This document shows, piece by piece, positions 22,577 through 42,503 of a stretch of 42,617 nt of DNA. The translations under genes and the position numbers were made by a program. Origin of the DNA: Salinicoccus halitifaciens. GTDB taxonomy: Bacteria > Bacillota > Bacilli > Staphylococcales > Salinicoccaceae. The DNA lies in the NCBI RefSeq assembly GCF_021026095.1, contig NZ_JAJNCU010000009.1, positions 1-42,617 of the forward strand, in the 5' to 3' direction. The notes below the pieces were generated by a model. The model searched no databases and was not told the DNA's origin. It was given only the letters and a program-made list of their open reading frames with translations. Position 1 is the stretch's first letter. Each line of letters starts with the position of its first letter.

Positions 22577-22605
22577 TTGAAAATAAACACTGAAAAGTGT
22601 AATAT
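22577..22605 (+). promoter_or_regulatory. Promoter for the ABC-F leader
   Basis: TTGAAA, a 17-bp spacer and TAATAT point along the plus strand. Transcription would begin near 22612 and give a leader of about 225 nt before the ABC-F start codon. Confidence 0.65.
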
Positions 22606-22642
22606 GGAATTAATTATAGAGAAAAGGAGTGAAATCAGGCCG

Positions 22643-22651
22643 ATGAAGTAA
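22643..22651 (+). other. Possible two-codon leader ORF (Met-Lys-stop)
   Basis: ATGAAGTAA lies 13 nt after AAAAGGAG. A GTG-initiated five-codon frame at 22629-22646 overlaps it. Later tiny frames start at 22666 (M-T-Y) and 22677 (12 codons) but lack a ribosome site. Known ABC-F attenuators use upstream ORFs this short. Confidence 0.4.
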
Positions 22652-22802
22652 ATTATCCTTTACCCATGACATATTGATGCTTATTCAGCATGCAAAAAAT
22701 GTCGGATCAGGATAATCACGGCCTAATTTTCTCCTTGTTCATTACGGATGATGTTATTTAATGTGTTTTATGAAGCATATTATAACATAGAGGCCCGTCG
22801 TA

Positions 22803-22837
22803 CCCTGATTCGAAATACTGAATTCGGGGGTTTTTTT
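22803..22837 (+). terminator. Attenuator terminator abutting the ABC-F start codon
   Basis: CCCTGATTC-gaaatact-GAATTCGGG forms a stem with one mismatch and a G-T pair, extended by GG and a run of seven T. The ATG follows the T-run directly. The G-run that would serve as ribosome site lies in the stem, so the hairpin can block both elongation and initiation. Confidence 0.8.
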
Positions 22838-24358
22838 ATGCTTGAATTGAAAGATATCCACCTGGAAGTGAATGGTGAGCTTCTGCTCTCAGTCGATCAC
22901 CTTCTGGTACAGGAACATAAGACGATCGGATTGATCGGCAGAAACGGCAGCGGCAAAACGACACTCTTCAACCATATGATTGAAAACAGTGAGATTTATA
23001 CGGAGGACACCATCCAGCTGATTCCGCAGATCAAGGATACCGACATTAAAAAAAGCGGCGGCGAGACGACACAGCTGTATTTAAACCGGACGCTGAATAA
23101 GGATGCAGGGATCATGCTTTTGGATGAGCCCACCACACACCTCGATGAGCAGTATTCCAAAGCTCTGGTGAAAAAGCTGCAGCATATCGATAATATCAAG
23201 ATTATCGCCTCCCACGACCGTGAATTCCTGAACAGGACCGTCGATGAAATATGGTCCATTGAGGACAATTCGATCAAAGTCTACCCGGGCAACTACGACA
23301 AATATAAGGAGATGAAAGAGCACTCCATAAAGAGGCAGCAGGATGAGTATGATAAATATGTAAAAGTTAAAAAACAATTATCAAATGCGATTGATAAGAA
23401 AAAGCGTCAGGCGGATGGCGCCGCAAAAGTAAAGGATAAGTCTGATTCCGACGTGAATGTCATCGGTGCAAAACCCTACTTCAACAAGAAACAGAAGAAA
23501 CTCGACCAGGTGGCGGGCGGCATGAAATCCCGGTTGGAACAGCTTGAAGTAAAGGACAAGCCGATCGAGGAGAAGGAAATCAAGTTCCATACCCAGGATA
23601 TGGAATCCCTCGGTCAAAAGATGATCATCAGAATTGAGGATGAAGATATCAAACGTGAAGATAAAACCATATTGGCAGGGGCTTCTTTATTTGTAAGAGC
23701 GGGTGAAAAGATCTCAATAACCGGCGCAAACGGCAGCGGTAAAACCAGCCTGCTCAACCATATCCACGAAAAATATAAAGAGTCTTCACTTAAAATCGGC
23801 TATTTCCACCAGCAGCTGGAATCACTTGATAATGATAGGACCATCATTGAAAACATCATGACAGCGAGCCGCTATGATGAGACGACCGTCAGGACCGTCC
23901 TTGCCAGGCTGAATATAAAGCGCGATGCGGTATATAAGAAAATAAGCGTCATCAGCGGCGGGGAACGCGTCAAAGTCCAGCTTGTGAAAATCTTGATGTC
24001 GGATATTCAGTTGATGATGCTCGATGAGCCGACGAACTTTCTCGACATCCATACGGTTGAAGCACTTGAAGACATGCTGCAGAGCCATCCTGCGGCCATC
24101 ATCCTCGTTTCACATGACCGGTTACTCCGTGAAAATATCACTGACACCAATTACAATATTGAGTATGGAAAACTGCTCAGTGATCAGACTACTGAATTTC
24201 TTGATGACACCGGGGAAGCACTGATGGTTCTTGAGAATAAAATCACTGAAGTGCTCAGCAGATTGTCTCTTGAACCCACTGAAGCTCTCGATGCCGAGTT
24301 CAACCGCTTACTCGAAGAAAAACGGGTATTGTTAGGCAAACGGGATAAGAGGAGATGA
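22838..24358 (+). CDS. Vga-family ABC-F ribosome protection protein
   Basis: This 506-residue protein has two ATP-binding domains and no membrane segment. Walker A motifs are G-R-N-G-S-G-K-T (34-41) and G-A-N-G-S-G-K-T (near 300). The signatures are K-S-G-G-E-T and I-S-G-G-E-R, with Walker B L-L-D-E-P-T and M-L-D-E-P-T-N-F-L-D. The linker (about 165-255, with V-I-G-A-K-P-Y-F-N-K-K-Q-K-K) and C-terminus (K-I-T-E-V-L-S-R-L-S-L-E-P) closely follow Vga(A), which displaces pleuromutilins, lincosamides and streptogramin A from the ribosome. The drug spectrum here is an inference. The ATG at 22838 follows an attenuator; an upstream in-frame extension crosses that hairpin and is rejected. Confidence 0.88.
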   Translation: MLELKDIHLEVNGELLLSVDHLLVQEHKTIGLIGRNGSGKTTLFNHMIENSEIYTEDTIQLIPQIKDTDIKKSGGETTQLYLNRTLNKDAGIMLLDEPTTHLDEQYSKALVKKLQHIDNIKIIASHDREFLNRTVDEIWSIEDNSIKVYPGNYDKYKEMKEHSIKRQQDEYDKYVKVKKQLSNAIDKKKRQADGAAKVKDKSDSDVNVIGAKPYFNKKQKKLDQVAGGMKSRLEQLEVKDKPIEEKEIKFHTQDMESLGQKMIIRIEDEDIKREDKTILAGASLFVRAGEKISITGANGSGKTSLLNHIHEKYKESSLKIGYFHQQLESLDNDRTIIENIMTASRYDETTVRTVLARLNIKRDAVYKKISVISGGERVKVQLVKILMSDIQLMMLDEPTNFLDIHTVEALEDMLQSHPAAIILVSHDRLLRENITDTNYNIEYGKLLSDQTTEFLDDTGEALMVLENKITEVLSRLSLEPTEALDAEFNRLLEEKRVLLGKRDKRR

Positions 24359-24359
24359 G

Positions 24360-24710
24360 ATGATGCTCAAACTGAAAAGGGTGTATGAGGATGTCTCCGG
24401 GCAGGATGGGAAGCGGATACTTGTGGACGGCATCTGGCCGAGGGGCGTCAAAAAGGAAGAGCTTGAACATGATGAATGGATGAAGGAGATTGCACCTTCG
24501 TCGGAACTCAGGAAGTGGTTCGACCATGACCCGGATAAATGGGATGAATTCAAAGAAAAATATAAGAAGGAACTGGATGACTGTAAGGAAGTTTTGATGC
24601 AAATCAAGGAGGATTCCGACGGACATAATGTCACCCTGCTTTATGCTGCAAAAGACGAAAAGCATAACCAGGCTGTGGTGATCAAGGAATATATCGAGGA
24701 TTTGAAGTAG
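24360..24710 (+). CDS. DUF488 family protein, YeaO-like
   Basis: This 116-residue protein of the DUF488 family has the usual motif L-V-D-G-I-W-P-R-G-V-K-K near residue 25 and W-F-D-H-D-P-D-K-W-x-E-F near residue 55. The function of the family is not established. Two consecutive ATG codons at 24360 and 24363 follow a GAGGAG site; the stop codon of the ABC-F gene ends just before, so the genes are translationally coupled. It shares the terminator at 24722 with the convergent copB gene. I see no catalytic residues that settle its role. Confidence 0.85.
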   Translation: MMLKLKRVYEDVSGQDGKRILVDGIWPRGVKKEELEHDEWMKEIAPSSELRKWFDHDPDKWDEFKEKYKKELDDCKEVLMQIKEDSDGHNVTLLYAAKDEKHNQAVVIKEYIEDLK

Positions 24711-39977: not shown

Positions 39978-40062
39978 GCCACCATGGCGGAATTGGCAGA
40001 CGCGTCGGACTCAAAATCCGATGGCCGTAAAGGCCGTGCCGGTTCGACCCCGGCTGGTGGTA
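39978..40062 (+). tRNA. tRNA-Leu(CAA)
   Basis: This is an 85-nt class II tRNA with a G-C-C-A-C-C-A acceptor, CTCAAAA anticodon loop and long variable arm. CCA is not encoded. It is on the plus strand, facing the minus-strand tRNA array, and has its own promoter and terminator. Confidence 0.95.
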
Positions 40063-40075
40063 CTAAATGAGATAT

Positions 40076-40114
40076 AAAGGCCTTCAACTACATTGTTGAA
40101 GGTCTTTTTTATAT
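40076..40114 (+). terminator. Terminator of tRNA-Leu(CAA)
   Basis: AGGCCTTCAAC-tacatt-GTTGAAGGTCT is followed by TTTTTT. Confidence 0.9.
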
Positions 40115-40159
40115 GTAAAATCGGACTATTATTCCTTAAATAAGACGCCGTACCCAACC

Positions 40160-40240
40160 ACAATATCAGAAGAAGCTCTAATGACTCATCATCTAAAGTC
40201 TGATGGTCCTAAAGGCCATACCCGGTCTGTAATACCAGTC
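40160..40240 (+). pseudogene. Decayed tRNA-Leu remnant
   Basis: TCTGATGGTCCTAAAGGCC and the following CCGGT line up with the anticodon stem, variable arm and T-arm of the functional tRNA-Leu 180 bp upstream. The anticodon and T-arms no longer pair, so this is not a working tRNA. The rest of the 40063-40364 gap holds only terminators. Confidence 0.6.
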
Positions 40241-40275
40241 CCCTGGAGACACTCTCCAAGGGTGTTTTTTTATTA
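40240..40275 (+). terminator. Terminator after the tRNA-Leu remnant
   Basis: CCCCTGGAGA-cac-TCTCCAAGGG pairs with one mismatch and is followed by TGTTTTTTT. Confidence 0.75.
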
Positions 40276-40293
40276 CATATATTTTTAAACATT

Positions 40294-40326
40294 AAAAAAC
40301 CGGCTGCATAAGCAACCGGCCGGTTT
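40294..40326 (-). terminator. Terminator of the tRNA array
   Basis: On the minus strand AACCGGC and GCCGGTT pair around a 14-nt loop, followed by a T-run. It lies 40 bp after the last tRNA. Confidence 0.85.
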
Positions 40327-40364
40327 ATAACAATCAATTTAATTATGAAACAAAATAAATAAAA

Positions 40365-40439
40365 TGGAGCGGAAGATAGGATTTGAACCTATGTCTTGCT
40401 TCAGGAAGAAGCATGTTCTAAACACTGAACTACTTCCGC
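40365..40439 (-). tRNA. tRNA-Gly(TCC), atypical D-loop
   Basis: This 75-nt tRNA with encoded CCA has acceptor and discriminator identical to the tRNA-Gly(GCC) of the same array. The D-loop reads AGTGTTTA and lacks the invariant GG at 18-19. The anticodon loop CTTCCTG has T at position 37 and can extend its stem by a C-G pair. The variable loop is 4 nt. This pattern is that of staphylococcal non-proteinogenic tRNA-Gly, which serves Fem transferases. Confidence 0.85.
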
Positions 40440-40459
40440 ATTGTATGGAAGGATTGCAA

Positions 40460-40530
<71 letters not shown>

Positions 40531-40537
40531 AGAAAAA

Positions 40538-40609
40538 CTGGGCTGGAAGGATTCGAACCCTCGCATGACGAGACCAAAACCCGTTGCCTTACCGCTTGGC
40601 TACAGCCCA
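40538..40609 (-). tRNA. tRNA-Gln(TTG)
   Basis: This is a 72-nt cloverleaf with anticodon loop TTTTGGT. CCA is not encoded. Confidence 0.95.
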
Positions 40610-40615
40610 ATAAAA

Positions 40616-40692
40616 TGGGGCGACCGATGGGAATCGAACCCACGAATGCCGGAGCCACAATCCGGTGCGTTAACCACTTCGCCACGATCGCC
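40616..40692 (-). tRNA. tRNA-His(GTG)
   Basis: The anticodon loop is TTGTGGC. The extra G at position -1 opposite C73 is encoded, and CCA is encoded. Confidence 0.95.
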
Positions 40693-40695
40693 ATA

Positions 40696-40769
40696 TGGCA
40701 GGGGTAGTAGGAATCGAACCCACACCAAAGGTTTTGGAGACCTCTATTCTACCATTGAACTATACCCCT
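40696..40769 (-). tRNA. tRNA-Trp(CCA)
   Basis: This is a 74-nt cloverleaf with anticodon loop TCCAAAA. The 3' CCA is encoded. Confidence 0.95.
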
Positions 40770-40773
40770 AAAA

Positions 40774-40854
40774 TGGTGGGGGGCAGATTCGAACTGCCGA
40801 ACCCGAAGGAGCGGATTTACAGTCCGCCGCGTTTAGCCACTTCGCTACCCCACC
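40774..40854 (-). tRNA. tRNA-Tyr(GTA)
   Basis: This is an 81-nt class II tRNA with anticodon loop CTGTAAA and a medium variable arm. CCA is not encoded. Confidence 0.95.
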
Positions 40855-40857
40855 AAA

Positions 40858-40933
<76 letters not shown>

Positions 40934-40943
40934 TGAGAAAAGG

Positions 40944-41016
40944 TGGTCCAGGACGGAATCGAACCGCCGACACAAGGATTTTCAATCCTTTGCTCTACCG
41001 ACTGAGCTACTGGACC
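40944..41016 (-). tRNA. tRNA-Phe(GAA)
   Basis: The anticodon loop is TTGAAAA. The gene ends in A followed by CCT, so CCA is not encoded. Confidence 0.95.
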
Positions 41017-41034
41017 TGCCTATGTAATTAAAAA

Positions 41035-41110
41035 TGGCGGTCCCGACGGGAATTGAACCCGCGATCTCCTGCGTGACAGGCAGGCATGTTAACCGCTACA
41101 CCACGGGACC
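41035..41110 (-). tRNA. tRNA-Asp(GTC)
   Basis: The anticodon loop is CTGTCAC and CCA is encoded. With G34 it is a substrate for queuosine, and queG is in this window. Confidence 0.95.
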
Positions 41111-41123
41111 ACTAAAAAAAGTA

Positions 41124-41197
<74 letters not shown>

Positions 41198-41218
41198 ATA
41201 ATAATATTAAAATAATAA

Positions 41219-41311
41219 TGGCGGAGGAAGAGGGATTCGAACCCCCGCGGGCCGTTAAGCCCCTGTCGGTTTTCAAGACCGATCCCTTCAGCCGAACTTG
41301 GGTATTCCTCC
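41219..41311 (-). tRNA. tRNA-Ser(TGA)
   Basis: This is a 93-nt class II tRNA with anticodon loop TTGAAAA and a long variable arm. CCA is encoded. Confidence 0.95.
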
Positions 41312-41335
41312 GTATGAAAAAAGCATTTAAAAAGA

Positions 41336-41412
41336 TGGTGGACCTTGCAGGACTCGAACCTGCGACCCAACGGTTATGAGCCGTTTGCTCTGACCAACTG
41401 AGCTAAAGGTCC
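41336..41412 (-). tRNA. tRNA-Ile(CAT), lysidine-dependent
   Basis: The loop is CTCATAA with acceptor GGACCTT, which matches the Bacillus minor isoleucine tRNA whose C34 is changed to lysidine by TilS. Elongator methionine tRNA is the next gene, as in the Bacillus rrnB order. Confidence 0.75.
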
Positions 41413-41416
41413 AATA

Positions 41417-41490
41417 TGGCGGCGGAGGGGATCGAACCCCCGACCTCACGGGTATGAACCGTGCGCTCTAGCCAGCTGAGCTACACCGCC
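41417..41490 (-). tRNA. Elongator tRNA-Met(CAT)
   Basis: The acceptor is GGCGGTG with loop TTCATAC, typical of the Bacillales elongator. CCA is not encoded. Confidence 0.9.
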
Positions 41491-41515
41491 ATGGTAAACT
41501 CAATGTTTTAAATAA

Positions 41516-41591
41516 TGGTGGAGACTAGCGGGATCGAACCGCTGACCTCCTGCGTGCAAGGCAGGCGCTCTCCCAGCTGAGCTAAGCCCCC
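41516..41591 (-). tRNA. tRNA-Ala(TGC)
   Basis: The loop is CTTGCAC. The acceptor includes two G-T pairs, and CCA is encoded. Confidence 0.95.
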
Positions 41592-41617
41592 ATTATGATG
41601 AGTATAAGTGAATCAAG

Positions 41618-41691
41618 TCGGGAAGACAGGATTCGAACCTGCGACCCCTTGGTCCCAAACCAAGTGCTCTACCAAGCTGAGCTACTTCCCG
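41618..41691 (-). tRNA. tRNA-Pro(TGG)
   Basis: The loop is TTTGGGA. CCA is not encoded. Confidence 0.95.
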
Positions 41692-41700
41692 TAATTTAAG

Positions 41701-41774
<74 letters not shown>

Positions 41775-41788
41775 ATAAGAATGAAATA

Positions 41789-41877
41789 TGGTGCCGAGGA
41801 CCGGAATCGAACCGGTACGATAATCACTTATCGCAGGATTTTAAGTCCTGTGCGTCTGCCAATTCCGCCACCCCGGC
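41789..41877 (-). tRNA. tRNA-Leu(TAA)
   Basis: This is an 89-nt class II tRNA with loop CTTAAAA. CCA is encoded. It is a predicted TrmL substrate. Confidence 0.95.
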
Positions 41878-41918
41878 TAACTTATTAAGACATGATTCTG
41901 ATACTATGAATAATTATA

Positions 41919-41993
41919 TGGAGCGGAAGACGGGATTCGAACCCGCGACCCCCACCTTGGCAAGGTGGTGTTCTACCACTGAACTACTTCCGC
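41919..41993 (-). tRNA. tRNA-Gly(GCC)
   Basis: The loop is TTGGCAA and the D-loop has an intact GG. CCA is encoded. It is the ordinary protein-making glycine tRNA of this cluster. Confidence 0.95.
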
Positions 41994-42010
41994 ATATACA
42001 ATTTTAATAG

Positions 42011-42093
42011 TGCGGGTGAAGGGAGTCGAACCCCCACGCCGTAAAGGCACTAGATCCTAAGTCTAGCGTGTCTGCCAGTTCCACCACACCCGC
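42011..42093 (-). tRNA. tRNA-Leu(TAG)
   Basis: This is an 83-nt class II tRNA with loop CTTAGGA. The 3' end is followed by CTA, so CCA is not encoded. Confidence 0.95.
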
Positions 42094-42094
42094 G

Positions 42095-42170
42095 TGGTGA
42101 GCCATAGAGGATTCGAACCTCTGACCCTCTGATTAAAAGTCAGATGCTCTACCGACTGAGCTAATGGCTC
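42095..42170 (-). tRNA. tRNA-Lys(TTT)
   Basis: The loop is CTTTTAA. CCA is encoded, and the gene is separated from the next by a single base. Confidence 0.95.
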
Positions 42171-42187
42171 ATACTTGATGAAGAAAA

Positions 42188-42263
<76 letters not shown>

Positions 42264-42268
42264 ATAAA

Positions 42269-42344
42269 TGGTGGAGAATGACGGGTTCGAACCGCCGACC
42301 CTCTGCTTGTAAGGCAGATGCTCTCCCAGCTGAGCTAATTCTCC
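42269..42344 (-). tRNA. tRNA-Val(TAC)
   Basis: The loop is CTTACAA. CCA is encoded. It is the first tRNA after 5S rRNA, the usual order in Bacillales. Confidence 0.95.
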
Positions 42345-42388
42345 AAAATAAAAACATGATGCTGATATTCAATTGATAAAAATGAATT

Positions 42389-42503
42389 GCCTGGCAGCGT
42401 CCTACTCTGGCAGGACGTATGTCCAACTACCATCGGCGCTGGAGAGCTTAACGGCTGTGTTCGGCATGGGAACAGGTGTGGCCTCTCCGCCATCGCCACC
42501 AGA
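42389..42503 (-). rRNA. rrf: 5S ribosomal RNA
   Basis: The minus strand reads TCTGGTGGCGATGGCGGAGA at the 5' end and ends GACGCTGCCAGGC, with the family motifs CCATGCCGAACAC and GCGCCGATGGTAG. It is the last rRNA of an operon whose 23S and 16S genes lie to the right. The 42504-42617 spacer has a small hairpin (TGATTACA/TGTAATCA) and perhaps the very end of 23S; no other gene is visible. Confidence 0.96.

Follow-up and report, generated by a model that had tools for sequence, protein, structure and literature searches.

A leader with a two-codon frame and a terminator/anti-terminator switch upstream of a Vga-like ABC-F gene in Salinicoccus halitifaciens: a probable ribosome-mediated attenuator

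The ABC-F gene, its leader and its neighbours

The stretch of Salinicoccus halitifaciens DNA analysed here in its entirety, referred to as the window, comprises 42,617 nucleotides (contig NZ_JAJNCU010000009.1) and includes a gene for an ABC-F protein preceded by a leader of about 226 nt, which runs from about 22612 to 22837. When considered from the point of view of curated profiles, the 506-residue protein scores 408.2 bits against NF000355 (ribosomal protection-like ABC-F), above the curated cut-off of 380, and 465 bits against NF000170 (Vga family), under the curated cut-off of 725, and its best match among solved chains is 7nhl. The designation "Vga-type" given in the initial annotation is thus right in that the protein is Vga-like and passes the ribosome-protection model, and too narrow in that the Vga cut-off is missed; what the leader directly precedes is a ribosome-protection ABC-F gene in the sense of NF000355. 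An earlier start at ATG 22748, taken from a mechanical list of open reading frames, was discarded because the orthologues begin at the ATG that follows the U-run. The features of the locus are as follows:

22577-22605, plus strand: promoter TTGAAA (22577-22582), 17-nt spacer and TAATAT (22600-22605), from the sequence and a matching site in relatives
22622-22629, plus strand: Shine-Dalgarno (SD) sequence of the small frame, AAAAGGAG, from the sequence and a purine-rich, G-rich run there in the aligned leaders
22624-22642, plus strand: 5' strand of the SL-1 foot, overlapping the small-frame SD, from the minimum-energy (MFE) fold and the strand-swap test
22643-22651, plus strand: two-codon frame ATG-AAG-TAA (Met-Lys), from the sequence, with the ATG kept in 21 of 21 rows
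22652-22659, plus strand: strand A, the partner of B in SL-1 (anti-antiterminator), complementary at 8 of 8 positions to 22709-22716, and swap test
22700-22716, plus strand: switch strand B, pairing through 22709-22716 with A and through 22703-22711 with C, from swap tests, pair counts and complementarity
22719-22736, plus strand: 3' strand of the SL-1 foot, from the MFE fold, the strand-swap test and complementarity
22803-22812, plus strand: strand C, CCCTGATTCG, the terminator 5' arm and anti-terminator partner of B, from the swap test
22819-22829, plus strand: strand D, TGAATTCGGGG, the terminator 3' arm, with one bulge relative to C, from the fold and the swap test
22826-22830, plus strand: GGGGG, an SD-like run lying mostly within the terminator stem, with a putative SD role for the ABC-F gene
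22831-22837, plus strand: terminator run of seven U, after a G, abutting the ABC-F ATG at 22838, from the sequence and the fold
22838-24358, plus strand: ABC-F gene of the Vga-like ribosome-protection type, 506 aa, from profile scores and the nearest solved chain

The initial annotation had read this region as an attenuator leader with a terminator/anti-terminator switch, and its main parts were recovered: the promoter is present, the small-frame SD and ATG-AAG-TAA are in the sequence, the long-range helix between 22624-22642 and 22719-22736 belongs to the minimum-energy fold, and the T-run does touch the ABC-F start codon. Single-sequence scans for a promoter and a terminator are nevertheless at or near chance, as would be expected of a fortuitous structure in front of a constitutively expressed ABC-F gene: the promoter match alone is at chance level in the window (1 found, 1.3 expected), and a simple terminator scan of the window does not list the terminator of the ABC-F leader, for which the last 46 nt of the leader give an energy of -11.2 kcal/mol. 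Such a chance origin is, however, hardly credible in view of the folding of the whole leader (249 nt; z -3.89, with 0 of 200 shuffles as good), of its conservation in 21 of 21 leaders and of the strand-swap tests described below.

A QueG-like gene lies divergently upstream of the ABC-F gene and recurs in 15 of the 29 loci searched, these being L002-L016, the 15 two-codon relatives. Downstream, a DUF488 gene (24360-24710; inactive N3 subclade according to Pfam) begins 2 nt past the ABC-F stop and is kept only in the same-genus loci L002-L005 (4 of 29); it would share the ABC-F attenuator. A plasmid origin was considered and set aside, as a collection of 72,556 plasmid records holds no DNA match to the ABC-F gene. 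Because of the conserved neighbours and the lack of a match in that collection, the ABC-F gene looks like a resident chromosomal gene. Elsewhere in the window, 39978-42503 holds a 5S rRNA gene and 23 tRNA genes (22 in minus-strand orientation), an ordinary tRNA array, and 35619-35649 matches the Rfam Iron response element II, which is known from animals, at 30.7 bits (cut-off 30, E 0.047), probably by chance.

Conservation and co-variation of the leader

Of 150 related genomes searched with the protein, 51 gave a match at E 1e-60 or better, and the aligned set comprises 21 orthologue leaders, namely the window and L002-L021, all from the window's family (f1) with 45-91% protein identity; L012 and L014 were excluded from alignment A3. 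All 21 carry the same anatomy before the ABC-F gene, including a conserved SD and short frame. The small-frame ATG is found in every leader and is followed by a stop after two codons in 16 and after three in 5, as against a stop within three codons for 16 of the 136 other ATGs in the same leaders. Second codons of the small frame in this set include AAG, GAG and AAA. A promoter matching at least 9 of 12 positions stands at the corresponding place in 20 of 21 (8 in L019), compared with 16% of shuffled stretches, and the distance from the end of the -10 box to the small ATG is 35-40 nt, again in 20 of 21 (53 in L017). Two further candidates were rejected: a small-frame start at GTG 22629, because relatives, compared by eye, do not keep it in a constant frame with the ATG, and the exact vmlR NusG pause motif as a constant element, since it occurs in 13 of 21 leaders and is absent from the window. 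In-frame stops flagged in the ABC-F genes of L006, L007, L010 and L019 fall at residue 503 or 494 and are simply the gene ends.

At the downstream end, each of the 21 leaders has a purine run that includes GG, lies in or at the terminator 3' arm and stops 6-10 nt short of the ABC-F ATG, so that by sequence all of them have the cplR-like arrangement in which the gene's SD lies in the terminator 3' arm and the U-run extends to the start codon. This position is what a mainly translational attenuation would call for, in which the last hairpin would act by covering the ABC-F SD and termination proper would carry little weight, and PMC10201436 reports that cplR with a mutant U-run kept its drug control. 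Such a reading is unlikely, however, because a run of six or seven U follows the terminator stem in nearly every aligned leader and is needless for hiding an SD.

Helices were assessed by a strand-swap test, in which the pairing energies of native strands are compared with those of strands exchanged between species over 5000 permutations, both for the 21 leaders and for 8 divergent leaders that are less than 80% identical. Permutations as good as the native pairing numbered 1 (21 leaders) and 47 (8 leaders) for the SL-1 foot, 0 and 1 for A:B, 0 and 3 for B:C, and 0 and 2 for C:D, against a background in which 1 of 165 pairs of sequence windows reached z -3 or below. Motif-anchored pair counts agree, with 262 of 273 cells paired and both-sided change in 5 of 13 columns for B:C, and 231 of 252 cells and 4 of 12 columns for A:B. 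Four helices therefore co-vary, the long-range one included, and A:B, B:C and C:D correspond to a mutually exclusive anti-antiterminator, anti-terminator and terminator; the comparison with 20 orthologues in this way bears out the attenuator leader as first proposed, with its tiny frame, its terminator/anti-terminator switch and a Vga-like ABC-F gene. RNAalifold predicted six different pairs from a MAFFT alignment and missed all four helices, likely because the alignment gaps are out of register. The model built from that structure (R1) is correspondingly poor, with 6 pairs and all four helices missing; being nearly sequence-only, it matches 4 of 398 sampled class genomes, at one place each and all in the window's family, and of the 26 other loci scanned with it L121 matches best (24.9 bits).

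Two copies of the anti-terminator strand had been proposed, and one of them holds, the GATCAGG strand, which starts at 22705 and not at 22704. AATCAGG at 22633 is complementary to CCTGATT in the terminator; it shows no co-variation, as 31% of permutations (21 leaders) and 40% (8 divergent leaders) equal the native pairing, and the corresponding letters differ in the same-genus L003, L004 and L005. The only conserved anti-terminator strand is 22700-22711.

Folding is consistent with these pairings acting as a switch. Unmasked full-length folds contain A:B (at least 11 pairs) and C:D (at least 8 pairs) and lack B:C in 21 of 21 leaders, and masking a ribosome footprint on the small frame flips the full-length MFE to B:C in 9 of 21, among them the window, where this shift had been anticipated. 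In the other 12 the anti-terminator would thus have to gain its advantage from the order in which the strands are transcribed. In transcripts ending at arm C, with arm D still to be made, B:C forms in 20 of 21 leaders when the footprint is masked (all except L016) and in 3 of 21 when it is not (L008, L013 and L014, the last with a leader truncated at its 5' end).

Relation to vmlR, cplR, Vga and ncr1575 leaders

The vmlR and cplR leaders have been tested with drugs (PMC9226507 and PMC10201436). The vmlR leader of Bacillus subtilis, whose frame is MIN and which matches Rfam RF02452 (ncr1575), shares with the window, as described in PMC9226507, an SD and tiny frame in SL-1, the SL-1 anti-antiterminator, an anti-terminator, an intrinsic terminator and a resistance ABC-F gene; it differs in its three-codon frame and in that the gene's SD is covered by another, separate hairpin further downstream (SL-4), and the ABC-F proteins belong to different clades. 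In cplR of Clostridioides difficile (frame MRI), according to PMC10201436, the end of the transcript falls at the ABC-F start codon and the SD of the gene is itself occluded within the terminator stem, both as in the window by sequence, whereas the frame has three codons and the ABC-F is of a different clade (CplR-like rows L033-L035). The claim that the leader seems distinct thus holds for its sequence, which differs from known leaders, but not for its plan, which is that of vmlR and cplR.

The nearest named ABC-F relatives of the window are vga(A) of staphylococci and lmo0919/vgaL of Listeria, for which ribosome-mediated attenuation is given by the citing papers (PMC10201436 and PMC12421871). 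Sixteen further Vga-type leaders (L022-L030, L031, L032, L041, L132, L133, L134 and L136) have the same order of parts as the window and a small frame of three codons in 15 (read by eye in L022 and L023) and of six in L026; unlike the window, they have the gene's SD downstream of the terminator. This split type includes L022, L023, L024 and L026 of the window's own family f1. From 80 further loci only L031, L032 and L041 joined this set, and L033-L040 were inspected as well. By eye, L033-L036 have an SD-like run and a U-run directly before the ABC-F start, an arrangement that matches the description of cplR in PMC10201436; against the CplR model (cut-off 780), L034 scores 769 bits and L033 551 bits, these being the two scanned. 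Twenty of the 30 places that initially had no locus were fetched, and L131, L135, L137-L141, L142-L145 and L146-L150 stayed outside the 16 comparison leaders: L131 and L135 are Vga-like by protein and have no such leader, in L142-L145 no leader was seen, and L146-L150 are second copies of Msr-like type or kin of these, in all cases by eye.

Other leaders came into view alongside these. In L137-L141 (genus g10), with ABC-F genes 34-36% identical, the leader frame is ATG-GTA-ATT-CTA-TAA or a close variant of it; together with an extended inverted repeat, CCAAATGATGATAT / ATATCATCATTTGG, it suggests by eye another attenuator type. The organism's own genome holds a second, Msr-like ABC-F gene (L148, L156; contig C4, about 294600-296300), which scores 639 bits against the Msr model (cut-off 680) and whose own leader contains, by eye, the frame MGIPRIWQAFLNKPTE; similar frames precede its kin L146, L147 and L150, and L149 is less alike. 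This leader may be another drug-sensing attenuator.

The Rfam family ncr1575 matches the window leader over its full length (1-212) at 23.8 bits, below the gathering score of 60, and the window's own genome has no match at E 0.001. Among 299 sampled class genomes 43 match, 30 of them over the cut-off, and among 14 control genomes Bacillus subtilis only. Of 53 places 20 were fetched (L111-L130), and an ABC-F match adjoins 19 (missing at L121; L126 is short). At the aligned ATG each of the 20 carries a frame of three codons, which reads MIN in 11; most also contain overlapping ATG frames, and in L119 there is a nested two-codon frame. Because of this adjacency, the three-codon and MIN frames, the match in B. 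subtilis and PMC9226507, we infer that ncr1575 is in substance a vmlR-type leader; filed as a Bacillus sRNA, it looks like a cis-regulatory leader since an ABC-F gene adjoins nearly every fetched locus. The Rfam name "sRNA ncr1575", together with the full-length match, would suggest that the window's leader is a separate small RNA ended by a plain terminator. This is very improbable, given a match short of the gathering score, the ABC-F gene beside the fetched loci, and an anti-terminator B:C that co-varies and that a plain terminator does not need.

Proposed mechanism and the two-codon frame

Very likely, the ABC-F leader is a ribosome-mediated attenuator that keeps the gene off unless a drug arrests a ribosome on the tiny frame; translation of that frame, termination, and the drug response with its spectrum would all follow the examples of vmlR and cplR. 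Without drug, a ribosome would start on ATG-AAG-TAA, make Met-Lys and depart, after which SL-1 would close and sequester switch strand B; the terminator would then form and transcription would stop at the ABC-F start codon, while in read-through transcripts the ABC-F SD would stay trapped in the terminator stem. A drug preventing formation of the first peptide bond, by homology expected to be a lincosamide, pleuromutilin or streptogramin A, would keep the ribosome on the small frame and SL-1 open, so that B would be free to pair with the terminator 5' arm, the polymerase would read on and the ABC-F SD would be exposed. Because the terminator 3' arm carries the SD-like run of the ABC-F gene, one hairpin probably locks both transcription and translation.

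It is also conceivable that the small frame responds to slow translation in general, for instance at termination or when amino acids run short, rather than to a single drug group. In a two-codon frame the stop would reach the A site once a single peptide bond is made, and any delay there would therefore hold SL-1 open; the small-frame stops of the 21 leaders are TAA in 13 and TAG in 8, and never TGA. Such general sensing is quite improbable, however, because the leader precedes a resistance-type ABC-F gene and because the tested relatives respond to peptidyl-transferase drugs (PMC9226507 and PMC10201436).

The protein tree has 40 rows, with L006, L007, L010 and L019 left out, and separates the window's group (17 rows) from the rest by a branch with support 100/99; the other groups are Vga (12 rows, 55/78), CplR-like (3 rows) and VmlR (8 rows). 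Within the window's group, one branch is made up of the two-codon leaders (13 of 13 rows, 93/90), with three more two-codon loci outside the tree, and the three-codon leaders form its sister branch (4 of 4 rows, 100/98), with L019 outside the tree. Since all 36 comparison leaders outside the window's group have a frame of three or more codons, a shortening within the window's family would be the simpler reading. It is tempting to see here a minimal attenuator, with its frame cut to two codons and a single hairpin locking transcription and translation, which would sense the first peptide bond alone and not the peptide, a view that we hold with about as much confidence as doubt. A full-text literature search, followed through titles and the starts of abstracts and with the original vga(A) and Listeria papers outside its scope, returned no two-codon ABC-F leader frame; a two-codon minigene in a toxin-antitoxin operon is the subject of PMC8708949. 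What is new here is the lineage, a separate ABC-F clade, together with the two-codon frame, the plan being already known from vmlR and cplR.

These observations suggest that an unstudied family, too, has inducible resistance built like that of vmlR and cplR, here in the form of a resident chromosomal gene. Furthermore, changing the vmlR frame to MRK weakened induction (PMC9226507), and the leader described here, in which a third codon is wholly lacking, is a naturally reduced system in which to ask if the encoded peptide is of importance.
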